This document shows, in pieces, positions 1-11,230 of a stretch of 11,230 bases of DNA. Within the stretch, counting starts at the first letter, position 1; each line of letters starts with the position of its first letter. A program made the translations under genes and the position numbers. The notes beneath the pieces were generated by a model. That model saw only the letters and a program-made list of their open reading frames with translations, searched no databases and was not told the origin of the DNA. Source of the DNA: Candidatus Gracilibacteria bacterium CG2_30_37_12 (GTDB lineage: Bacteria; Patescibacteriota; Gracilibacteria; BD1-5; UBA2023); the NCBI GenBank assembly GCA_001873165.1, contig MNYO01000121.1, positions 1 through 11,230 on the forward strand, read 5' to 3'.

Positions 1-113
1 TGTTTACAAATGAACGCCCGCATTCTTTGCATCTATTTTTTGGTTTTCAGGCATTATTGCACCCATCTTTTTTGATCCGAGAAGACCTACATTCCGGACA
101 TTTTTTTTGTCAT
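1..113 (-). CDS. Insertion-sequence transposase, N-terminal zinc ribbon, partial, start out of frame
   Basis: This is the beginning of a DNA transposase that runs off the low edge. Reading from base 100 downward gives a zinc ribbon: CPEC, then about 19 residues rich in Lys/Arg/Asn, then CKECGRSFV. The Cys-x2-Cys...Cys-x2-Cys-G-x-x-F pattern is typical of the DNA-binding N-terminus of IS1-like and related transposases. One in-frame TGA (47-49) falls in 'NNA-G-KPKNRCKEC', where related ribbons usually have glycine before a basic stretch, so it supports UGA = Gly. The only good ATG (111-113) is followed by ACA and an A-run of eight. It is one base out of frame with the ribbon, and losing a single A would give M-T-K-K-C-P-E-C. 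The ribbon frame itself has a UAA upstream and no start codon. It may be a sequencing error, a decayed copy, or expression by slippage on the A8 tract. The catalytic domain is outside the window, so the IS family is not settled. Confidence 0.7.
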
Positions 114-128
114 AATTATTCAGGATGA

Positions 129-158
129 AAAAATAGTACCAACGATAGTACTATTTTT
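129..158. terminator. Perfect 11-bp hairpin upstream of the transposase
   Basis: Bases 129-139 (AAAAATAGTAC) pair perfectly with 148-158 (GTACTATTTTT) around an 8-base loop. On the minus strand the right arm ends in a run of T, so it can work as an intrinsic terminator. The plus strand has almost the same shape. It lies about 15 bases before the transposase ATG and after tRNA-Trp. It could stop outside transcription from entering the IS, or be part of the IS end. I see no terminal inverted repeats that would settle this. Confidence 0.6.
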
Positions 159-250
159 CCTTTTACAATCAAGAGAACATAAAAAATCCAGCCTACATTT
201 TTTTCTATTTACCCAATTTTTTAGAACTCTTTGCTAACTCCAGAAACAGC

Positions 251-278
251 ATAAAGGAGCCATTACTGGCTCCTTTAT
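251..278. terminator. Bidirectional intrinsic terminator after tRNA-Trp
   Basis: ATAAAGGAGCC (251-261) and GGCTCCTTTAT (268-278) form a perfect 11-bp inverted repeat with a 6-base loop. The G+C core with A/T outer pairs is the usual shape of an intrinsic terminator. It begins 17 bases after the 3' end of tRNA-Trp, so it most likely ends the rpsB-tsf-tRNA transcript. No long T-run follows on the minus strand beyond the arm itself. Confidence 0.75.
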
Positions 279-294
279 TGTTTGTCATACCATA

Positions 295-369
295 TGGCAG
301 CCCCAGTTGGAATCGAACCGACCTCGCAGGATTTGGAGTCCTGAATTCTAACCGATGAACTATAGGGCT
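295..369 (-). tRNA. tRNA-Trp (anticodon CCA), CCA end encoded
   Basis: The minus strand folds as a complete 75-nt tRNA. The acceptor stem is AGCCCTA/TGGGGCT with one G-U pair, and the D stem is GTTC/GAAT. The anticodon stem CAGGA/TCCTG closes the loop CTCCAAA, giving anticodon CCA (Trp). The T loop is TTCGATT, with one C-A mismatch in the T stem (GTCGG/CCAAC). The discriminator is G73, as expected for tRNA-Trp, and the 3' CCA is encoded. The CCA anticodon reads UGG and is not the UCA form found where UGA has become tryptophan. This agrees with UGA being used for glycine here. The gene lies 40 bp after tsf with no room for its own promoter, so it is probably processed from the tsf transcript. 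Confidence 0.95.
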
Positions 370-372
370 AAA

Positions 373-402
373 ATTCATAAGTCATTAAAATGACTTATGA
401 AT
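373..402 (-). terminator. Perfect 14-bp hairpin between tsf and tRNA-Trp
   Basis: Bases 373-386 and 389-402 are perfect inverted complements separated by two A residues (arm ATTCATAAGTCATT, minus strand). The structure starts 7 bases after the tsf stop codon and ends about 3 bases before the 5' end of the tRNA, followed by a short TTTT. It looks like a weak intrinsic terminator. Because the tRNA follows at once, it may instead be a processing site or a 3' stabilising structure for tsf mRNA. Confidence 0.6.
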
Positions 403-409
403 GAGTATA

Positions 410-1195
410 TTAAATACTGAACTTGTAGAAATTTTCGATAGAATCTCCGATAAAATCCTTCACTTTTTGATCGGGATTTACTACGAATTGTTGCGTAAGA
501 AGTGCATTTTCCTCACGGAATTTTGTCATCTTTCCATCGATAATCTTGAGAAGAATTTCAGCAGGTTTTGTTGCATTCTTTGGATCTTCTTGCATGATAG
601 CAAGTTGAATCTCTTTCTCTTTTGCAACTGTTTCCTCAGAGATGTCTGTTGGAGCGAGAACTTGTGGTTGAGTTGCAACGATGTGCATAGCAACCATCTT
701 GAGAGCTTCTACATCAGAACCAGCTTTTGCTACAATGAGAGCGGCATTCTTAAAGTTTGTATGAACGTAACTTGCAAGAACAGCACCAGAAATCTTTGTA
801 AGAGTTTTGATAACAATGTTTTCTCCGACTTTAAGAGTATATTCAGAAGCCTTGAGTTCTTCAGCAATAATAAGAGCTGCTTCATCGGAAGCAGTAGTTT
901 TACGAATCTCGATGAATTTTGAAACCATTTCCTCGAAAGTTTCATTTCGTGAAACAAAATCTGTTTCACATTCCACTACCGCAATATATGCATCGGTTCC
1001 TTCTATAACGATTTTAATTTTCCCTTCTCCTGTCTCATTTCCAGCACGTTTTGCTGCTTTTGCGAGACCTTTCTTTCGAAGTACGTCGATTGCCGCTTCC
1101 ATATCACCGTTCGTTTCAACGAGTGCATTTTTACAATCTGACATTCCAACCCCTGTTCTTTCACGGAGTTCTTTTATAAGCTGAGCAGTTACCAT
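410..1195 (-). CDS. tsf: Translation elongation factor Ts (EF-Ts)
   Basis: EF-Ts is the nucleotide exchange factor that releases GDP from EF-Tu during protein synthesis in the cytoplasm. The 261-residue product starts MVTAQLIKELRERTGVGM and continues with DCKNALVETNGDMEAAIDVL. This is the conserved N-terminal UBA-like domain with its TGVGMxDCKxAL signature. The next block, VVECETDFVSRNETF, is the hallmark of the EF-Tu-binding core. Length is in the usual range. It has no internal UGA and ends with UAA. No Shine-Dalgarno sequence precedes the ATG (the upstream sequence is aaccaaaaactatt). It follows rpsB as in most bacteria, but a small membrane-protein gene and a G+C-rich repeat lie between them. 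tRNA-Trp follows 40 bp downstream. Confidence 0.97.
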   Translation of the reverse strand: MVTAQLIKELRERTGVGMSDCKNALVETNGDMEAAIDVLRKKGLAKAAKRAGNETGEGKIKIVIEGTDAYIAVVECETDFVSRNETFEEMVSKFIEIRKTTASDEAALIIAEELKASEYTLKVGENIVIKTLTKISGAVLASYVHTNFKNAALIVAKAGSDVEALKMVAMHIVATQPQVLAPTDISEETVAKEKEIQLAIMQEDPKNATKPAEILLKIIDGKMTKFREENALLTQQFVVNPDQKVKDFIGDSIENFYKFSI

Positions 1196-1224
1196 AATAG
1201 TTTTTGGTTAATGATTTAAAGTTT

Positions 1225-1297
1225 GCCCCTCTGATAAGGGGACTAAGGGGGTGTAACCCTCCGCTCTACGGGCACCTCCCTTCTCATTGGAGGATTT
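1225..1297. repeat. G+C-rich palindromic intergenic repeat
   Basis: This 70-odd-base block is far richer in G+C than its surroundings and has several small hairpins. CCCCT (1226-1230) pairs with AGGGG (1237-1241), and CCTCC (1275-1279) pairs with GGAGG (1289-1293) followed by ATTTTTTT on the plus strand. Between them lie a G-run (ctaagggggtgtaaccctcc) and a ctctacgggcacc segment. The composition and the ccccttatcagagggg motif (minus strand) resemble interspersed, mobile-like palindromic repeats seen between genes in many bacterial genomes; that resemblance is from memory and unchecked. It fills most of the 104-bp gap before tsf. The short plus-strand reading frame across it is a by-product, not a gene. 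Confidence 0.6.
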
Positions 1298-1299
1298 TT

Positions 1300-1629
1300 T
1301 TATTTCTTAAATTTCTCAAAGAGTGCATCGATAAATCCATAGGAATACATTTCTCCATTAAACGCCTTCCATCCAGCATATCCAGCAAGAGCGAGATATA
1401 CAAGGAATAAGAGTCAAAATATCCCATGAAGTGGTACGATATTCAAGATAAAGAATATCCCAAATATTGTTCCTCCTCGTTTCGTATGAAAGGAAAGAAA
1501 CTCTGATTGTTTTTGCATCAAAATTGGTGCAAAACATCCGAATGGAGCATAACACAACGCTCCGAGTAATTTCTCTTCTTTCCCTAATTTATCATCTTCT
1601 TCTGAAGGAGTATTCAAATTATCTGGCAT
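1300..1629 (-). CDS. Small Tic20/DUF4870-like membrane protein
   Basis: This 109-residue integral membrane protein is read through one in-frame TGA (1414-1416, residue 72, 'PLHGIF-G-LLFLVYLALAG') and ends with UAA. It has an acidic N-terminus (about residues 1-20). A first membrane segment follows around LLGALCYAPFGCFAPILM, then a polar turn QSEFLSFHTKRGG, then one or two hydrophobic segments (about 50-90), ending in a basic tail FEKFKK. The order 'EEKLLGALCY...P..K.SEF..FH.K.G' matches the Tic20-like/DUF4870 family, small multi-spanning proteins of unclear function. If TGA is taken as stop, the last membrane segment is lost. It lies 46 bp after rpsB and before tsf, an unusual place for a membrane protein, and is probably cotranscribed with both. 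A T-rich stretch and no Shine-Dalgarno sequence precede the ATG. Confidence 0.85.
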
Positions 1630-1675
1630 ATGAAAAAATATGAGATGCTAAAGAATATTTCTTTTTCTCGTGAAA

Positions 1676-2434
1676 TTATTCTGCGGAAGGAGTTTCAGTA
1701 ACTGGAGATTTTGGAACGAGTTTTTCTGTTCTTCCCATAACTCCCCCTTCTGTCTTTTTAACACGTTTAATAGAAGCCTTGAGATAATCAAGAACGAATT
1801 TAATAGATTTGATAGAATTGACATTACTTGGAACAAAATCAGTACAACGATCGATATCACCAGTAGAACCAAGAAGTGCGTATGTTGGGATCTTAAGAGT
1901 TCGTGCTTCTTCAAGCGCAAGAGCTTCATAATGTCCATCCACTACGAGTAGAACATCTGGAGTTTTCTTAATATCTTTAATACCTTCGTAAGCTTTTCGA
2001 AGTTTCTCAAGTTCTTTCAATTTAGAAGCTTTCTCTTTTTTTGTAAGCATTTCAAGAGCTCCAGTTTCAAGATCTTTTTCGATCTGATTATAGGCAGCAA
2101 TTCGCTTCTTAATAGTTGGAAAATTCGTCAAAAGTCCTGGAACCCACTTTGTATTGATGTAGTAATTTCCAGTTTCTTCTGCAATAGCCTTAACAGTGTC
2201 ACGAGCTTGAAGCTTTGTTCCAACGATAAGAACTACTTTTCCTTTGGAAGTTGCTTCCTCAAGAGCCTTTTTAACTTCGGTAATTCGAACTTCTGTTTTA
2301 TAGAGATCAAATACATGAATGTTATTCTGAATTCCATAAATATAGTCTCGCATTTTAGCTGACCAAAATTGTCGTTTGTGTCCGATGTGCACGGCATTGT
2401 CGAGCATATCTTTAATAAGGGCAGTATTTGCCAT
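1676..2434 (-). CDS. rpsB: 30S ribosomal protein S2
   Basis: Ribosomal protein S2 is part of the small-subunit head-body junction. The start is placed at MANTALIKDMLDNAVHIGHK. The frame stays open for 23 further codons upstream, but those residues come from the leader repeat region and do not resemble S2. The 252-residue product shows the family blocks HIGHKRQFWSAKMRDYIYG, FDLYKT, VLIVGTKLQARDTV, NYYINTKWVPGLLTNF, PDVLLVVDGHYEALALEEA and IPTYALLGSTGDID. A short tail rich in Lys, Thr and Pro follows. There is no internal UGA, and the stop is UAA. Tryptophans at conserved S2 positions are encoded by UGG. The bases before the ATG (cactttttttactct) contain no Shine-Dalgarno sequence. A structured leader upstream suggests autoregulation. 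Confidence 0.97.
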   Translation of the reverse strand: MANTALIKDMLDNAVHIGHKRQFWSAKMRDYIYGIQNNIHVFDLYKTEVRITEVKKALEEATSKGKVVLIVGTKLQARDTVKAIAEETGNYYINTKWVPGLLTNFPTIKKRIAAYNQIEKDLETGALEMLTKKEKASKLKELEKLRKAYEGIKDIKKTPDVLLVVDGHYEALALEEARTLKIPTYALLGSTGDIDRCTDFVPSNVNSIKSIKFVLDYLKASIKRVKKTEGGVMGRTEKLVPKSPVTETPSAE

Positions 2435-2453
2435 AGAGTAAAAAAAGTGAAAA

Positions 2454-2515
2454 AATAGCGGTAGCGAACCTAAAAGTGTTATTGATAAACCACTTGTCAT
2501 CAATAGCGGTAGCGA
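2454..2515 (-). repeat. Two 14-bp direct repeats in the rpsB leader
   Basis: The plus-strand sequence AATAGCGGTAGCGA occurs at 2454-2467 and again at 2502-2515, exactly 48 bases apart. On the mRNA strand this is TCGCTACCGCTATT, itself an imperfect repeat of GCTA. Between the copies TATTGAT and ATCAATA form a 7-bp inverted repeat. The last copy ends only 20 bases before the rpsB ATG, where a ribosome or S2 itself could bind. This is consistent with an RNA control element, but its function is inferred. Confidence 0.6.
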
Positions 2516-2539
2516 TCCTTAAAATCCATCTTCTCTCTG

Positions 2540-2579
2540 GTACTATATAAGACTCTGATTCGAGTCCAGGAAATAGTAC
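2540..2579 (-). promoter_or_regulatory. rpsB: Two-tier stem-loop in the rpsB 5' leader
   Basis: An outer 7-bp stem (GTACTAT 2540-2546 with ATAGTAC 2573-2579) encloses an inner 5-bp stem (GACTC 2551-2555 with GAGTC 2562-2566). A 4/6-base internal loop separates the two stems, and the top loop has six bases. It lies about 105 bases upstream of the rpsB start, inside the long leader that also carries the direct repeats. In many bacteria rpsB and tsf are repressed by S2 binding its own leader RNA, so an S2-responsive element is the most likely role. The structure was found by eye only. Confidence 0.5.
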
Positions 2580-2633
2580 GGTGTTCTCGAGAGAAAATCG
2601 TGGTAATTTCATTTTCCGAAAAAACCCGCGTGC

Positions 2634-2639
2634 ATTATA
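2634..2639 (-). promoter_or_regulatory. Candidate -10 box for the rpsB operon
   Basis: The minus strand carries a perfect TATAAT (2634-2639). A TTGCTT lies 15 bases upstream as a poor, slightly short-spaced -35. It sits just after the 33-residue membrane peptide gene. A start about 7 bases downstream would give an rpsB leader of nearly 200 nt, long enough for the stem-loop and the repeats. In such an A+T-rich genome TATAAT can arise by chance. Confidence 0.45.
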
Positions 2640-2663
2640 TGGAAAAAATCCAAAAAGCAATTT

Positions 2664-2765
2664 TTATTTTTCCAAAAAATACATAACTGGGGCTATGATA
2701 AATGACGCCATAATACCAATAACAATAATAAGTGCTACGATCTTTACAGAAGTATTTTTTTTCAT
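2664..2765 (-). CDS. 33-residue single-pass membrane peptide
   Basis: A short gene runs from ATG at 2765 to UAA. The product is a basic MKKNTSVK start followed by a hydrophobic stretch of roughly 22 residues (IVALIIVIGIMASFIIAPVM) and the tail YFLEK, so it should sit in the cytoplasmic membrane with its N-terminus inside. I do not recognise the family. It follows the 892-residue protein by 49 bp and is probably in the same operon. The same frame is open upstream of this ATG, but that extension runs into the preceding gap and the end of its neighbour. The MKK-hydrophobic layout makes this start the most natural. It could be a small partner of the envelope proteins encoded upstream. Confidence 0.6.
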   Translation of the reverse strand: MKKNTSVKIVALIIVIGIMASFIIAPVMYFLEK

Positions 2766-2814
2766 AGAATGAAGTGTTATAAAAGAGTAAATAATGTATG
2801 GGAATATATCAAAC

Positions 2815-5493
2815 TTATTCAGCAGGAAATTCTGGGATAAATGGTATATTATCAAGTAATACCTTTTTCCCTACTAGATCGATAACAATGGTTTGTTGAT
2901 TCGTATAGGAAGCTTTAATAATATCTATATAGTAACCGAGATCTTTTAGAAATACAGGAAGTTCTGTAAAGTATATACGTACTGGAAATATCTGAATGGG
3001 GATATTATTAAAGTCATATCAGTCTCATCATTCTGTTTTTACTTTGAAGACCATTCTTGAAAAGAGATGTCTCGTGATAATATAATTTCCATTTAATTCT
3101 ACTGAATAATTCTTTCCATTTCCTATAAATCCTTTATTGATCTTACTCAGTTCGATGATTCTGGCTCCATCTTGGATATATGCATAAACATTACTGAAAT
3201 GAATAGGAAGAAAATCTACGATATTCTTGAAGTCTTTATCCAGCAATTCTTGTTGAATAAAAAGTTGCATTTCTGGTGTTGTTGACCGAATGTTATTGAT
3301 AGGATCTGGTATCGAAGGAGTATCTGTTACTGTAACAGAATCTCCCTTTAAAAAAGTATTTTCAAAGAAATTCTTAAAATCATATTTATATTTCATAACT
3401 TGATCTTCCGCAGCAGCAGCAAGTTCTTTTAATTTTTTCTCTTTCTGATCAAGAAATATAGCAATATCTGGAAAAGTTTTTTTAGTTCACAATACATCAA
3501 CATAAGAGATATCTGCGATTATATGATTTTGATCCAAAAGTTTGAAAGTAAAAGCATTACCAAGTATCACTACTTGTACTTCATAAAAACCATCCTTTTG
3601 AAAATTATTTACCACTTGAAGTGTCGATATATCGAGACTATTAAAATTTTGGAGATATTTCTGCACTATATCGATACCCATTCGATCTTCTTTTTCTATC
3701 AAAATACCTCTCGCAGATCTATCGTTTGCATTGAGATGAAAATCGCTCAGATATTTGGGATAATTATCAAACATAGACACGAGTGTATCAAATGAGTCCA
3801 GTGTTCTTACAAGAAGAGAATAGTTATCAATTACTTGTGAATTTCATTGATTTCCACTATCAATAGATAGAGCCTTTTTTTTATTTTCTATATCTTTCCG
3901 TATCGTGTCAATACCTTCATTGAAGGCATTGACAAAATTTGAATCTAAGGCGATAGTGTCTCCATTCAGATATTCTTCCTTTATAAGAAGCCCCTTTCTA
4001 GTTTTATCAGTAAAAGTTGTTAAAAATACACTGTGTATTTTCGTAAAAATTCTAGTATAATTATAGAAAATAGTTGTGGTGATATTTGCTAATTTTTCTT
4101 TATCTCATTGATTACTTGTATAATAATCATTCGTTATTTGAGATAAATGAGATATGATTCATACGGTATCTCTACTCAGTATAACGAGTCCAGTCGAGAG
4201 ATATTGCGTTACAAAAAATGAAAATGGAAGAAAATCATCTTTTGCTAGAAATTTATTTTCTAACATACTCTGAAGAATCTTCTCGAAATATTTATTCAAC
4301 TCTTCTGTATGGAGATTCAGAAAATAATAAGCAGAGAAGAGATTCGAAAGATATGTATAGTATTCACGCTGTTGTAATTTTGGATTATGAGTAATGATTT
4401 TCTCTGTTTGTGATAAAAATGATGACTCCACTCATTCAGGGATAAAAACCATCTTCTTATCCACATCTGTTGCATCCTTGCCTACAAAATGAGAATATAT
4501 GGTAATATAATAATACTGTTTCAGTATAGTTAGACCGTCCTCATATACTTGTGGACTCAGTTCCTTCATCTGAGCAAGAGTACTTGTTATTACACTACTT
4601 TGTGATGTTTTCTGATTATTATCCAGTGCTTGCAATATATTTTCGATAAGCGTATTTTTGAGGAAAATCTCCTTTTTTGAACCATTAACAAGAAAATTAC
4701 TCGATGCATCAAAAAAAGAAATATTTTTTGTATTCGTATTATTCTTATCAAGAATATTAGAATGAAGCTTAACAAGAGCATTGATTCGAGCAATAATATC
4801 TTTTTCTACTTCTGTAAGAAATGTCTGGTTTTGTTCTATGTTTTCTTCAGAAAATAATATCTTACTATCTTCCGCTGTTTTTATGTCTACATAACGAATA
4901 GAATCAACGATAGATATTCTCAAAATATCTGCCTCTTTCAATCCAAGAGTATTTTTTGAATCATGTTTGAAAAGTAATGACGGGAAAAGTGTAAATTGTG
5001 CAATGTGTGCTCGTCCTGAACCATTTACCAGTTCCGTATCCAAAAATGCATCAAACGAAAATATCTTCGCTTGAGGATTATTGGTATCTATAAGAAAAAC
5101 TCCTCTTCCCTTTGGTAGGAGAGTAATATCACCCACACGAAATTCATATTGTTCCAATCTGGTCTGTATATTACAAACAAACAAACCAGAACCAAAAGTG
5201 ATGATATTTACATCTTCTTTTTTAGAGTGAACAAATGGATTCTTATCTCCCGATGTATAGTAAATACCATCGATGGGTGATAATTGTCGAAGGTAAAAAC
5301 CATCTTTTTTTTGAGTGGAATCTTTTTTTACAAAAGTCTTTTTTGTAGCATCCCAGCCATAAAGTTTTTCTCATTCACTGAAATCAATATTTATAGTATT
5401 TGCTTTTTCAAAAATACTCTCTCTCGAAAAAGAGAGAAGTATGAGAATTCCCAATCCAATGAGAATAGTAAGAATAAAGAAAATTTTTTTCAT
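2815..5493 (-). CDS. 892-residue membrane-anchored protein of unknown function, nine UGA codons
   Basis: One reading frame runs 893 codons from ATG (5493) to UAA (2815) if UGA is read as glycine. UGA codons fall at residues 41, 354, 445, 463, 550, 669, 822, 823 and 825. With UGA as stop it would break into at least five pieces. The N-terminus (MKKIFFILTILIGLGILILLSFS) is a signal anchor or signal peptide, so the rest should lie outside the membrane. Residues about 60-240 look beta-rich ('DGFYLRQLSPIDGIYYTSG', 'RVGDITLLPKGRGVFLID'), loosely like a FecR-type domain, but I would not name it as one. The middle (about 240-700) is mostly helical, with stretches rich in Lys, Asn and Gln, including 'DQKEKKLKELAAAAEDQV'. 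The C-terminus returns to beta-like sequence and ends FIPEFPAE. It starts 28 bp after the PBP gene, which points to a role in cell-wall or envelope assembly. Confidence 0.85.
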
Positions 5494-5521
5494 AAAAAAA
5501 ATGATAAATAGCATTTCAATA

Positions 5522-8500
5522 TTATCGTGCGATAATTTCAAAAGGAAGAGACTTTTTCGTTTTCTGATTTTTTGTATCCACTACTTCTATCTCAAGAGTA
5601 TGTATCCCAATAAGTATATCTTTATCTACATTGATTGCAAGAGTTTGTTCTGTATCGATTGGGAGAATCTTAGAAAGTGTCCCATCTATATAAAGATTTG
5701 CACTTTGTATCGGATCAATTCCAGGAGAGAGAGTAAAACGGAGATTGAAGTACTGATCTCCATAAATTCTGGTTATAGCACTATCCTTGAGAGGACTAAT
5801 GATAGTAATAGTCGTTGTAGGGTTTCTATCCTCAAATGTCACTTTTGTGGTATATATCGCAGAATATCCATACTTATCAATGGCACGAAAAGAAAGCGTA
5901 TGTTCTCCTCGGAAATCTTCCCCGAAAGTTATCGCCGGCACTTTATATACTCCCGATGTATCGGTGGCAAGAATAGGGAATTTCTGAAAAATAATCCCAT
6001 CTTTTATAAATTCTAAACTCACTATAGAATTGTCGGAGCTATAGGTAATTTCAAATGGATATCTTGCGAGAGGATATGTACCACCGTCCTTAAAGGACGC
6101 AGAAATGGTAATATTGGAGAGTCCCGCATTTGGTCGTACACAGGCTTCCGTACTGACTTCACCGAGAATATTATCTACATTTTGAAAATATGTTTTTCAT
6201 GTCTCGGATTTTACCCATTCTGCAATTGCTGGAAGCCAATCTTTTTCATATCCATCTATGACAGGATTTATGTTGGCAATATATCATTTCTTAATAGCCT
6301 CTGGCGGTGTACTTTCTGTTACTTTTCCATTACAGAGACTATCTACTTCTACAGGTTGGAATCATCCTTCGTATTCTGTTGGTTTGACAGCAAAAATAGA
6401 TGTAACTTTGAGAGAATCAGGAGTTACTCAAGTTACGAGTTTTCAAGAAATCTGACTAATGGTTGCCGAAAATATACTCGCTGGTTTCTGGAAAGTTTCT
6501 ACAGGAAGATTTTTATGCGCTGCTTCCATGAAATCATGCCAGATGGGTGCAGCACAATTCAATCCATCACACGTCCCTTTTGTTTCTGAACCATCAACAT
6601 TTCCTGCCCAAACAACAGTTGTAATCTGAGGAGTATATCCAGCCGTCCAGAGATCTCGTGGGAGAATTTGTTTCTTTCCGTTTTTTGTTACATCTTTATT
6701 GGAAGTTCCAGTTTTTGCCGTGACAGGACGATTTTTGAGTGTGAGAACATTATTCCAGAAATCTCCTGGACGACTTGTTGCATCAGAAAGAATCGTACTT
6801 ATAATATAAGTAGCTGCATCAGAAATCACACTTGTTCCCGAACTTTCTGTATATTGTTCTATCAAATTCCCTTTTTTATCAGTAATTTTCAAGATAGGAT
6901 TTATCTCTTTTCTATATCCACCGTTAGCAAATACACTGTACGCTTGGAGAAGCTCGAGAGGTTTTAATTCTCCTGTTCCAATAGCAAGAGGTGCTCCATA
7001 TTCCCCTCTTTTATTGAGAGAAGTTATCCCGAGATTTTCTGCAAATTCCACCACACTTGCTTCTCCGCCCGCGAGGTAAAACATTTTAATTGCTGGGATA
7101 TTTCGAGAATAATCGAGTGCTTTCTTCACGCTCATTTTCCCGAGAAATTTCTTATCATAATTATTTGGTTCCCATTCTCCAAACTTCGTTCTCAGATCAA
7201 AGATAGGAGTATCTGGACTGATGGGATTCTTGGAAATGGCAAGCGTATACACTATGGTTTTAAATGATGACCCCGGTTGACGCTTAGAAGTAATGATATT
7301 CACATTCCCATCTTCCTCGCTATTGAAATAATCTGCTCCTCCTATCATCGCAAGAATCTGACCTGTCTTATTATCCATACTCACGAGAGCAGCCGATTTT
7401 GCTCCGTATTTTGTTGTATTAATTTTTACTTGTTTTTTCACTAATTCTTCTGCGGTATCTTGAAGTATGGGATCAATGGTCGTATATATCTTGAGTCCAC
7501 CTTGTGCTTCAAAATCCTTTCCATATTTATTCTCCAAATAATCCTTGATATAGAAGACAAAATGTGGATATTTAATATTTTCCTTATACGCATGGAATTG
7601 GAAATCGATGCCACCTATGAAGGCAGTTTTATATTCTACTGGTTGAATTTTCTGATCTTCAAACATACGACCAAGAACGAAATCTTTTCGCCCAGTATTG
7701 TATTCAAGAATCATAGTTTTTTTCTCTCCATTTACTGTTCCTGTAGTAGTGTTTGCTGCCACTGGAGTTTTTTCATCTCATGTTCCAGGGGATAATATCT
7801 CTACTACTTGCCCTTCTATTTGTATGCTATTAAAAAAAGTCAGCAATTCACTATAATTAAGAGTTGTACAACTATCACTATCTATAGAATATTTTTGTTT
7901 TAAATATGCCTGTTTTACATGACATATACTCAGCTTATCTGCGGTCAACGGCTTAAATTCGAGAAGAGAAACAAATTCTTTAAATTTCGTTATCAGATCT
8001 TTGTACTGTGTATTTTTCCCATTATTCTCGAGATTGACAATATCTTTTGGACTACTTTTCTCGTGTACGGAAAAATACCCCATAAGACGATCCTTGTGAG
8101 AATAAGGAGAATAATATGAAGAACCTTTTGGGAGAGAAGCAAGAATCGAGCTTTCAAGAATCCCTACGTCTTTAGAGGATTTGCCAAAATAGGTTTTTGC
8201 TGCTTCCTCAATTCCATACGCATTATTTCCGAAACTGATTTTGTTTAAATACAGTTCTAGGATTTTTTCTTTGGAATATTTATTATTGAGTTCATAAGAA
8301 AGATAGATTTCCTTTACCTTTCGATCGGTGCTTCGTTCAGACGTAAAAAATATATTCTTAATAAGTTGCTGACTAATCGTCGAAGTTCCCTGAATTTTAT
8401 CTGTTTTTCCACTGATATAATTGAATCCTGCTCGCAAAAGTCATTTGAAATCGATCCCTGGATTTTCGAAAAAAGTCTTGTCTTCCGTGCTAATAATTGC

Positions 8501-8821
8501 ATCTCGCATATGACTGGATATCTGACCATATGGAACATAGGTTCGTTTTTCCTCATTATAAAGATTATACAACTCTCCCCCATTACGATCATAAATGATG
8601 CTACTTTCTGGAAGTACATCACTCTCGATTCCAGAAATGACTGGTACATCATAGAGATAATAAATAACAAGAGCTACTACAGAAAATGATCCAATAAAAA
8701 ATACAAGAAGTGCAATATAGAGAGTAATATATTTCCCGCTAGATTTTTGCTTATTTTTTCTTTCAAGATAGGCTCTCTTGAGTGCTCAGGTTTTTATTTT
8801 CTCTTTTTTAAATTCTGTCAT
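5522..8821 (-). CDS. Bifunctional class A penicillin-binding protein (glycosyltransferase/transpeptidase)
   Basis: This enzyme polymerises lipid II into glycan strands and cross-links them outside the membrane. The 1099-residue product is read through eight UGA codons (residues 12, 127, 348, 793, 798, 820, 846, 875) and ends with UAA. It has a short basic cytoplasmic tail and a membrane anchor (about 33-57). The GT51 domain shows the catalytic Glu in STEDKTFF (E113), QGTSTISQQLIKN (from 144) and the RKVKEIYLS/EKILELYLN block. A linker with GRKDFVLGRM and GGLKIYTTIDP leads into the transpeptidase. That domain has SSFK (nucleophile S518, K521), SRN (572-574) and KTG (703-705). The C-terminal 220 or so residues look Ig-like, similar to C-terminal domains of PBP1A/1C-type proteins. 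Two UGAs fall on glycines common in the family, in 'GIDFK-G-LLRA' and 'IS-G-KLVT'. It lies between the LCP gene (65 bp) and the 892-residue gene (28 bp). Confidence 0.95.
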
Positions 8822-8886
8822 AGGTATTTTTACAGGATATATAATCCCTTGCAGGATATCCAGAAATGGTTTTTTTTCAAGTAGTT

Positions 8887-10263
8887 TTATTCTGCTACTA
8901 CTGTTTTATAATCTTTTCCGAGTATGACCTCAATTTTTGGACTTTGAGTCTTGGAATACTTATTCGTAGGTACGGATTGTTGCGGAGCAAAAATAAAGAG
9001 AGAAAGAGCCTCAAGAGTCTTAGAGGTTGGAGAAATTCCTATTTTATTTTCCATATCCCAAGTAGCGAAGACTTGGGTTTTTTCATAGAGGTCTTTAGTG
9101 CTGCCGATGCTATCTTTATCAGGAATATTGAACCCAAATTTCTTGAGATAGAGCGCAATAGTATTTGCCATTCCTGGAGTTTTTGTAGAATTGATGATAC
9201 TTATTTCACTATTTTCCAGAAACATCTCTGGATAGTTAAATACAATATTGGAAAACTTAGAAGTATCTGCATAGGAATCCAGATGTGTTGGCGTAGCTCC
9301 ATCTGGAAGCAGTACTGATACTCCGCCGAAGAGATCACGCATAGGAGTATAGAGAAAACCCCCACGTTGACAATAGGCGAGCCCTTGAAAACACGAATCG
9401 TTCAGATTGAAAGCGAGTATATTGGCGGTCGGAATATCTTTCCCAAAGAGAGCGAGGGATGCAAGTTGCCCCATGGAGAGATCTGTTTTTATATGAGAGA
9501 CGATTGCATAATAGAGAGATTTTATCTTGGTTGGACTTGTCAAGATATCGAGCGAAAAAAGCCTATCTTTCACTGCTTTTATAACCAACTGTTGCCTACG
9601 AGATCGATCAAAATCACTCGTTGAGTGGCGACTTCTTGCATACTTGAGAGCGGTTGCACCATCGAGTGTTTGTCGCCCCTTTTTTATACTAAAAGTTATA
9701 TATCCCCAATTATTATCAGGGTATTCCATATCTGTGAGATCCTCTTCTACATTTACCTCAATTCCTCCGAGAAGATCTATAAATTTCGTGAATCCATCGA
9801 AATCTATATTCAAATAATGATCCATTTTTTCTCCAGTGATTTCTCGAAGTTTATCTCCCAAATCCGTCATGGCTTGCGTTTGTGATTCTTTTGCATGAAG
9901 CCCACGCATGTAAATTTCATTGATTTTACCACGTCCCCCAAGAGGATATTCTACATAAAGATCACGAGGAACAGAGAGAAGGGAAATAGTTTTGCTTTCT
10001 GGATGCAGAGAGGCGAAAAGAATTGTATCGGTTAAATTAGCCCCATCATGGTCTCCTCCACCGATTCCTGTAACGAGAATATTGATCTTATTTTGTTCTA
10101 TTCCCGAAATGGTCTGAAACAAGCTTATCTTCCCCGGAAAAGGAAGAGAAAAGTTGAAATGAAAAGAAGGAAGTTGCGAGAATGTAATAAATGAAACAGC
10201 CACTACTCAGGAAATCCCGAGAAAACCAAGCAATATCCCAGAAATGAAATTACGTTTTTTCAT
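8887..10263 (-). CDS. LCP (LytR-CpsA-Psr) family protein with LytR_C-like tail
   Basis: LCP proteins transfer glycopolymers from a lipid carrier to peptidoglycan on the outer face of the membrane. The 458-residue product starts MKKRNFISGILLGFLGIS, then a UGA (residue 19, 10207-10209) read as Gly inside the membrane anchor. Without this readthrough the gene would appear to start at a GTG inside the anchor. The LCP domain includes LTDTILFASL (D79), LSVPRDLYV (R100, D101), RGKINE (R111, K113), IDLLGGIEVNVEEDL and DGATALKYARSRH (R210, R212) with DFDRSRRQQ (R220, R223). These match the acidic and arginine residues that bind pyrophosphate-lipid substrate. A C-terminal segment 'SEISIINSTKTPGMANTI...LKKFGFNI' resembles LytR_C. 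The ATG lacks a Shine-Dalgarno sequence. It heads the envelope cluster after a separate terminator and intergenic region. Confidence 0.93.
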
Positions 10264-10299
10264 CGCAAAATATCGATTCTTGAAAGACGCAAAATTTGA

Positions 10300-10317
10300 G
10301 AGTGAATTGTTTCACTC
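10300..10317. promoter_or_regulatory. Short hairpin in the LCP leader
   Basis: GAGTGA (10300-10305) and TCACTC (10312-10317) form a 6-bp inverted repeat with a 6-base loop, 37 bases before the LCP start codon. It could be an operator or an mRNA structure. Nothing else in the sequence decides between them. Confidence 0.3.
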
Positions 10318-10353
10318 AGCAGGCGGAAGTGGTGTTTTTTTAAAAGACACAAA

Positions 10354-10384
10354 TTTATAAGATTAGATACTATAAATATTTCAA
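10354..10384 (-). promoter_or_regulatory. Weak candidate promoter for the envelope cluster
   Basis: On the minus strand TTGAAA (10379-10384) is followed 19 bases later by TATAAA (10354-10359). The spacing is longer than ideal and the area is very A+T-rich. The position fits well: between the terminator of the previous unit and the LCP start, it would give a leader of roughly 85 bases. The rest of 10318-10446 holds no gene I can support. Confidence 0.35.
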
Positions 10385-10446
10385 AGAAAATTATCGAGCG
10401 AAGTATATGTTTTTGCTCGAAAAAATCAAACAAGATTTTCGGACAG

Positions 10447-10487
10447 AAAAACAAAAAATAGATGTCTCTTATAGAAAACATCTATTT
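10447..10487 (-). terminator. Intrinsic terminator after the small exported protein gene
   Basis: On the minus strand AAATAGATGT (10487 down to 10478) and ACATCTATTT (10465 down to 10456) form a perfect 10-bp stem with a 12-base loop. A T-rich tract (TTTTGTTTTT) follows at once. It begins about 33 bases after the UAG stop of the gene at 10520 and separates that unit from the envelope cluster. Confidence 0.8.
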
Positions 10488-10519
10488 GAATTTTACGAAT
10501 GCAGGTTCACATCATTATT

Positions 10520-10984
10520 CTAGTGGAGTAAAAGAGAATGATTGTAAGACCCCGAAAGAATACTATTAGCATTTTTGGTAATCTCATCGTATGCAGCTTT
10601 TGGAAGAAACGCTGGAATATTGTATGAACCATTTCTATATGCAAAAAGCTTATCAAAACTCACAAATCGAAAAATAGTACTCATATCTTCCCTATCATAG
10701 GGCGACCGAATTTCCTCTCTTTTATATACTCCTTCTAAGGAATAACTTCTTCCCATATAAGATATTTTCAAAACAAATTTATTTCCATTCATTTCACTTT
10801 TCTCGGGATGAAAAGTGAATTTTCACGAAGTAATCGCATGCACTTGATCGGCAATCTGTGCTCTTGGAAATGGAGGAATATTCTGAGAAAACTGGAGAGA
10901 AAGTTGATTACTTCATGAGTCAGACCTTTCGTACAATGTGGAAAGTGACATAAGAGAGAAGAAAAGAATATAAAAGTATTGCAC
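10520..10984 (-). CDS. Small exported protein of unknown function, start uncertain
   Basis: This frame reads through two UGA codons (10913-10915 and 10823-10825) and ends with UAG, the only UAG stop among the genes here. With the GTG at 10982-10984 it has 154 residues. It has a hydrophobic N-terminus (YFYILFFSLMSLSTL) that looks like a signal peptide, then 'SNQLSLQFSQNIPPFPRAQI', a beta-rich middle ('GNKFVLKISYMGRSYSLEGV') and 'YNIPAFLPKAAYDEITKNAN' near the end. I do not recognise the family. The frame stays open upstream, and a TTG at 11018-11020 would give 166 residues with the more typical start YGLYRKSILNYV, overlapping the previous gene by about 20 bases. An ATG at 10984-10986 overlaps the GTG but opens a different, less plausible frame. 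It is probably cotranscribed with the preceding gene and ends at the terminator downstream. Confidence 0.65.
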
Positions 10985-11000
10985 ATAATTTAAGATACTT

Positions 11001-11230
11001 TTACGATAAAGTCAATACAATTGACTCTCAATCCCACCCACTTTTTCTCCTAAATAATCTCGAATTTTCTCTTGACAAAGCCAACAGTGCCATAATCGAA
11101 GTAAAGTATATCTTTACTTCTTTTTTATGTCTCGCTCCATACAAACTTGGATCAATCGTGAATCTGGATATATTACCCGGTGAATGAAAGTCTGGGATAA
11201 AAAGTTCTTCCATGACTTTCTCTCATCACT
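11001..11230 (-). CDS. C-terminal part of an unrecognised protein, cut by the window edge
   Basis: The frame runs from the high edge to UAA (11001-11003), passing UGA at 11028-11030 ('SGWD-G-ESIVLTLS'). Two more adjacent UGAs (11223-11228) lie upstream of the ATG at 11213. Under code 25 the frame stays open to the edge ('GGEKVMEELFIPDF'), so this is probably the tail of a longer protein. A 70-residue gene from that ATG cannot be excluded. Visible sequence includes 'HSPGNISRFTIDPSLYGARH' and a stretch 'IYFTSIMALLALSRENSRLF'. I do not recognise the family. The next gene starts within about 20 bases of its stop, or overlaps it, which suggests one transcript. Confidence 0.6.

Follow-up and report, generated by a model that had tools for sequence, protein, structure and literature searches.

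UGA as a glycine codon in a contig from a further genus of Gracilibacteria: a known genetic code and its uneven use among relatives

What does UGA encode in a stretch of DNA where it crosses most of the protein-coding frames? The stretch analyzed here (the window) is an entire contig of 11,230 bases (C108) from an assembly of 946 kb in 134 contigs that is 90.5% complete (G000), and its nine coding frames all lie on the minus strand. An earlier note had proposed that UGA is reassigned to glycine (NCBI genetic code 25) and that seven of the nine frames carry it; translation with table 25 confirms in-frame UGA in seven frames, counting a transposase fragment among them. The glycine reading is supported by sequence comparison, namely by residue tallies at aligned columns, a single class-I release factor, no selA in the genomes searched, and a glycine-type tRNA with anticodon UCA, tRNA(UCA), in five of six congeners. 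Hence, the presence of code 25 in the window is true and well supported; it is also already known, and the window adds a further genus of a known group.

Evidence that the frames are real comes first from the gene for a class A penicillin-binding protein (PBP), whose nearest named matches mostly carry the label Candidatus Gracilibacteria (the window's own genome may have been excluded from the records compared). In congener G005 (locus L072), table 11 already gives this gene as an uninterrupted frame of 1132 codons with a TAA stop, and its product aligns by tblastn with window positions 5525–8827 in a single piece (77% identity), crossing eight TGA and no TAA or TAG. Residues 1–1099 of the window PBP align with six congeners at 76–80% identity, and the frame ends where its homologues end. 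If the UGA sites were true ends, homologues should stop at them; instead, they continue through. The features of the window are as follows.

1–109, minus strand: InsA-like zinc-ribbon transposase fragment (from translation), its 3′ side cut by the contig end; in-frame UGA at 47–49 and another TGA at 110–112, just before the frame.
295–369, minus strand: tRNA-Trp(CCA) (ARAGORN), with a 5-bp anticodon stem, CAGGA/TCCTG, read by eye.
410–1195, minus strand: tsf, elongation factor Ts (PF00889, TIGR00116); no UGA, ends in TAA.
1300–1629, minus strand: small membrane protein of 109 amino acids, labelled Tic20-like in the earlier note; UGA at 1414–1416.
1676–2431, minus strand: rpsB, ribosomal protein S2 (PF00318, TIGR01011); no UGA, ends in TAA.
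2815–5493, minus strand: 892-codon protein, adjoining PBP in six congeners; nine UGA (low bases 5371, 4432, 4159, 4105, 3844, 3487, 3028, 3025, and 3019).
5522–8821, minus strand: class A PBP with transglycosylase and transpeptidase domains (PF00912, PF00905); eight UGA (low bases 8786, 8441, 7778, 6443, 6428, 6362, 6284, and 6197).
8887–10350, minus strand: LytR-CpsA-Psr (LCP) protein with LytR_C (PF03816, PF13399); UGA at 10207–10209 and 10312–10314.
10520–11041, minus strand: small protein, exported according to the earlier note, with relatives in five congeners; UGA at 10823–10825 and 10913–10915, ends in TAG.
11001–11230, minus strand: partial edge gene, its 5′ side cut by the contig end; UGA at 11028–11030, plus 11223–11228 if the frame codes there.

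All per-gene UGA counts of the earlier note agree with these, and for three frames they depend on the start: the LCP gene has two from the first GTG and one from a later ATG (10312–10314 is coding only from the early GTG), the exported-protein gene has three from the first GTG (adding 11012–11014) and two from a later GTG, and the edge gene has three in the open frame and one from an ATG at 11213. What did not hold is the transposase as a full gene. It is a fragment, because it is cut by the contig end and lacks an in-frame ATG, GTG, or TTG between the TAA at 116–118 and its first cysteine, and the frame (1–118) may be degenerate or frameshifted. It matches the Pfam family Zn_ribbon_InsA weakly, with E 0.014 (15.5 bits against a cut-off of 26.1) when UGA is translated as glycine and E 0.17 when UGA is translated as X, below the cut-off either way.

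With the edge gene and a small open reading frame (ORF) included and the transposase fragment left out, eight frames end in TAA and one in TAG. These endings are partly a matter of construction, because UGA was taken as a sense codon in delimiting the frames, and the absence of internal TAA or TAG is not itself a test, because the frames were picked as free of both. Switching to table 11 leaves the ends of the tsf and rpsB frames unchanged. Frames of at least 150 amino acids amount to 2073 amino acids in seven pieces under table 11 and 3214 in six pieces under table 25, each set including one wrong-strand overlap piece.

Pseudogenes or sequencing errors could also leave UGA inside frames, and the transposase fragment, startless and possibly degenerate, would suit such an explanation. 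It does not extend to the other genes: for PBP, it is refuted by the one-piece alignment with a standard-code homologue, and tsf, rpsB, and the Tic20-like, 892-codon, and LCP genes are kept in four to six congeners (46–94% protein identity), as is the exported protein at 35–54%. We give this explanation virtually no credence. Gene order was compared across six congener contigs, using 49 (L132–L180) of 76 named loci for this and the congener tallies and leaving out 27 more distant ones. The 892-codon gene follows PBP in all six contigs, rpsB comes next in five, and the Tic20-like gene and tsf are present in four, the fifth rpsB-bearing contig ending within rpsB. LCP lies directly upstream of PBP, with the exported protein adjoining it, in four of the six; in L134, LCP is about 8 kb upstream of PBP, and both LCP and the exported protein are about 8 to 10 kb from it, and in the L135 contig neither was found. 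A sequence check showed that these named contigs come from the same genomes as our congener assemblies (L132 is G006, L133 is G001, L134 is G005, L135 is G004, L136 is G003, and L138 is G002), and they therefore add no further evidence.

Aligning homologues and tallying the residue at each UGA column, a check proposed along with the original claim, placed UGA at conserved glycine positions. In the PBP alignment (29 of 30 loci; L095 was left out because a wrong ORF had been chosen), codon 127 is matched in 28 relatives by 24 glycines and four UGA, and codon 793 by 22 glycines, five UGA, and one gap. At codon 875, glycine is the commonest residue (8, with 2 UGA, of 28). The UGA of the Tic20-like gene faces a GGN codon in all four congeners compared, and that of LCP at 10207–10209 faces UGA or GGA in five of five. 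Over seven genes, with four to six congeners per gene and matches below 60% of gene length excluded, the UGA columns of the window hold 33 glycines and 23 UGA in 123 cells. One-way best-hit pairs linked the window and a further 132 kb of this genome to about 400 kb each of G005 (39 ORF pairs, 13,075 codons) and G003 (29 pairs, 11,875 codons); UGA lies opposite 24 glycines and 11 UGA at 61 columns with G005 and opposite 28 glycines and eight UGA at 49 columns with G003. The best single meaning of UGA is glycine, with serine second at −49.5 (G005) and −83.2 (G003) log units. This tally keeps one ORF per place; when overlapping out-of-frame ORFs were included, Trp, Cys, and Arg ranked above Gly.

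Several observations weigh against glycine as the sole meaning. Four of the eight UGA codons in PBP (12, 348, 798, and 820) stand in non-glycine columns, and at codon 846 glycine ties with isoleucine at eight each, with three UGA. In the pairs, UGA is opposite glycine or UGA at 57% (G005) and 73% (G003) of columns, compared with about 91% for GGN codons. Serine stands opposite window UGA in 26 of 123 congener cells, compared with 13 of 521 at GGA columns, and two-residue mixtures outfit glycine alone, with gains for G005 of 12.6 (Ser), 8.5 (Trp), 7.6 (Arg), and 3.3 (Cys) log units and for G003 of 5.9 (Ser), 7.0 (Trp), and 0 (Arg and Cys). The serine excess and the glycine-plus-serine and glycine-plus-tryptophan mixtures are what would be expected if UGA, mainly glycine, were decoded ambiguously in this low-UGA genus, with a minor fraction of serine or tryptophan. 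However, that several different residues gain in the mixtures points to variability of the sites and not to a second meaning of UGA, and 22 of the 26 serine cells (window 3019–11014) sit in six columns. Across 29 PBP sequences, serine accounts for 7.2% at UGA columns and 6.1% at GGA columns, and the tRNA-Trp(CCA) of the window has a 5-bp anticodon stem. Since TCA and TGA differ by one base, new UGA codons would readily arise at serine sites, and the serines at window UGA columns probably reflect TCA-to-TGA changes at variable sites. We consider ambiguous decoding improbable.

Tryptophan as the meaning of UGA (code 4) merits attention because it is a common bacterial reassignment and a tRNA-Trp gene lies in the window itself. 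That tRNA has the anticodon CCA, and UGA stands opposite tryptophan at only two of 61 and two of 49 pair columns. Its 5-bp anticodon stem (by eye) differs from the 4-bp stem of tRNAs suggested to decode UGA as tryptophan; a 5-bp stem is expected where UGA is glycine, with four exceptions among 53 such genomes (PMC13092985). The UCA tRNA of the congeners, moreover, bears glycine identity bases, and we regard the tryptophan reading as very improbable. The Codetta survey (PMC8629427) predicts CGA and CGG as tryptophan in Absconditabacteria and CGG as tryptophan in some Gracilibacteria. Unlike that prediction, CGA here stands opposite arginine in 196 of 218 (G005) and 184 of 196 (G003) cases and CGG in 32 of 34 and 25 of 28; the change predicted for Absconditabacteria is thus not seen here.

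The earlier note had also called for a search for a glycine tRNA with anticodon UCA. Such a tRNA with glycine identity bases occurs in five of six congeners (G001, G003, G004, G005, and G006) and, by pattern search, in more distant relatives among the matches listed; among these matches, none was found in G002 (78% complete). The glycine-identity rule of the Codetta survey (PMC8629427), which we also used (G1:C72, C2:G71, G3:C70, and U73), and the terminal CCA are satisfied by all 23 tRNAs extracted, one per genome. The tRNA is 79 nucleotides long with CCA and has a short variable loop (by eye). In L055–L069, its D-loop seems to lack the usual GG, again by eye.

Telling against the glycine reading, tRNA(UCA) was not found in the 90.5%-complete assembly of this genome: a pattern search gave two matches, neither a tRNA by ARAGORN, and the 79-base sequence gave no match in a search run without a positive control. 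The Rfam tRNA model gave 22 matches in this assembly, among which ARAGORN identified none for Ala, Asn, Asp, Ile, Lys, Pro, or Val; with tRNAs for seven amino acids missing, either the tRNA search or the assembly is incomplete. In G003, G005, and G006, tRNA(UCA) adjoins tRNA-Arg(GCG), and when the surrounding 10 kb of G003 served as query, G001, G004, G005, and G006 matched it on either side of the tRNA (over several contigs in G001 and G004). In this genome, apart from two short matches elsewhere, the match is confined to the query from base 7053 onward and begins at base 184 of contig C124. The surrounding stretch is thus missing along with the tRNA, and an assembly gap is the simplest reading.

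ARAGORN labels the UCA tRNA tRNA-SeC, from its anticodon, and selenocysteine insertion at UGA would be the corresponding explanation. Its length and short variable loop and the presence of as many as nine UGA per gene speak against this, as does the search for selA, which found it in none of 40 genomes; the control search gave a signal in 4 of 14 genomes, Escherichia coli among them, and passed the cut-off in one. Selenocysteine is, in our view, scarcely credible here.

If UGA is a sense codon, the factor that terminates at UGA should be gone. Release factors 1 and 2 are marked by PxT and SPF motifs, respectively, and this genome has one RF-1 family gene, with the motif PET. We find release factor 2 missing from this genome, although, because the assembly is 90.5% complete, its absence from this genome alone is not proof. 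An order-level set of 59 genomes, this one included, has exactly one RF-1 family gene in 52, two in one, and none in six. Outside the class, 66 of 73 genomes of the phylum have at least two RF-1 family genes, the second of which may be release factor 2, five have one, and two have none. Among four genomes from other orders of the class, three have two or three such genes and one, G085, which is listed as 100% complete, has a single one. At 30 release-factor loci, the PxT motif was present in 19, and the other 11 matched neither pattern.

Taken together, these results make it almost certain that the window derives from an uncultured bacterium related to Candidatus Gracilibacteria and employing NCBI genetic code 25. 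UGA would be read as glycine by a dedicated glycine tRNA whose anticodon is UCA, and release factor 2, the terminator at UGA, would have been lost; given both, genes would end at UAA or UAG. We infer that this species itself has tRNA(UCA) and that glycyl-tRNA synthetase charges it.

The code itself is not new, as the earlier note had said. Campbell and colleagues reportedly described it in SR1/Absconditabacteria in 2013. Code 25 and its machinery in Gracilibacteria and the sister group are treated in PMC4032931, PMC6851277, PMC8629427, PMC13092985, PMC13059738, and PMC8406219; because these papers already document the code, its tRNA, the lost prfB gene, and proteomic proof of the reading, the code is known. 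Hanke et al. (2014; PMC4032931) report for Gracilibacteria (BD1-5) 97 peptides unique to UGA as glycine, three to UGA as tryptophan, and none to UGA as stop. UGA is glycine in both studies; theirs concerns another organism, whereas our evidence is comparison-based and UGA is here a minor glycine codon. In a complete Gracilibacteria genome (PMC6851277), prfB is reported as undetected; prfA is retained and prfB missing there and here, whereas the UCA tRNA was seen here in congeners only. Of 15 Gracilibacteria species, the Codetta survey (PMC8629427) infers UGA as glycine in 13; for the remaining two, which carry release factor 2, it makes no inference.

The note had placed the novelty in the organism and its proteins. 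PBP, LCP, tsf, and rpsB belong to known families; the remaining proteins have no family match over the cut-off, the 892-codon protein matching only Cupin_1, below threshold, and the Tic20-like protein having no Pfam or NCBIfam match. The edge gene has no relative among the named loci searched (L132–L180). Between the 892-codon gene and rpsB, an ORF at 2664–2765 encodes a membrane-like peptide of about 33 residues with no Pfam match; it has 82% identity over 33 residues in two congeners and 67–70% over 43 to 44 residues in two more.

How much UGA is used varies widely under this code. Its share of glycine codons in 40 PBP sequences runs from 0 to 91% and falls as third-position GC rises (Spearman −0.92 over the 36 sequences with any UGA). 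This coefficient leaves out four UGA-free PBPs (the congener L134, L163, L172, and L173) and keeps L166 (titled Peregrinibacteria), in which the two TGA may lie beyond the true end and reflect read-through. A second set of 29, sharing genomes with the first, gives −0.74. L172 and L173, labelled Candidatus Gracilibacteria, have PBP genes without UGA and third-position GC of about 0.3; in crude ORF counts, which do not settle their code, table 25 gives almost no gain for L173 (4380 compared with 4375 amino acids) and adds 463 amino acids for L172, with 33 TGA inside. Within the genus (L071–L076 and the window), the orthologous PBP has from 0 (G005) to 15 (G002) UGA, and elsewhere in the order up to 71. 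Over seven genes, the share is 6–21% in congeners and 11% in the window; best-hit pairs give 6–7% for this genome.

UGA is also unevenly placed. In the seven PBPs of the genus, 12 of 43 UGA and 240 of 508 GGN codons fall in conserved glycine columns (odds ratio 0.41, pooled p 0.016); the window PBP alone (2 of 7 compared with 34 of 69, p 0.44) is too small a sample. Best-hit pairs agree, with odds ratios by gene of 0.27 and 0.30. Eleven relatives with a UGA share of 15–50% show 64 of 230 compared with 316 of 715 (odds ratio 0.48), six other relatives below 15% show 7 of 19 compared with 192 of 429 (0.78, not significant), and five at 50% or more show 133 of 308 compared with 37 of 86, that is, no avoidance (1.01). 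Both the trend and the avoidance statistics ignore kinship among the sequences. UGA is thus a minor glycine codon in this genome, commoner at variable glycine sites than at conserved ones. Such a pattern would result from selection against UGA if it is read less well, or from recent glycine gains through TCA-to-TGA changes at variable sites. Tentatively, and with considerable doubt, we suggest that the reassigned codon may have been emptied again in GC-richer relatives, this genus included, where it has a share of 0–21% and is kept off conserved glycines as if less efficiently decoded than GGN; in AT-rich relatives, by contrast, most glycine is encoded by UGA and the avoidance is absent. A literature search by title or abstract returned nothing treating the trend in UGA share or the avoidance of conserved glycines; GC content and codon usage of such clades are reported in PMC8629427, whose data may already contain part of the trend.

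For annotation, code 25 must be used for a further genus, as table 11 breaks the PBP and the 892-codon protein apart. Under one code, the reassigned codon ranges among relatives from nearly unused to dominant, so that comparisons among them could address what such a codon costs. If the suggested emptying is true, a single clade would display a reassigned codon at both extremes, fixed and nearly lost, possibly with ambiguous decoding as an intermediate state.

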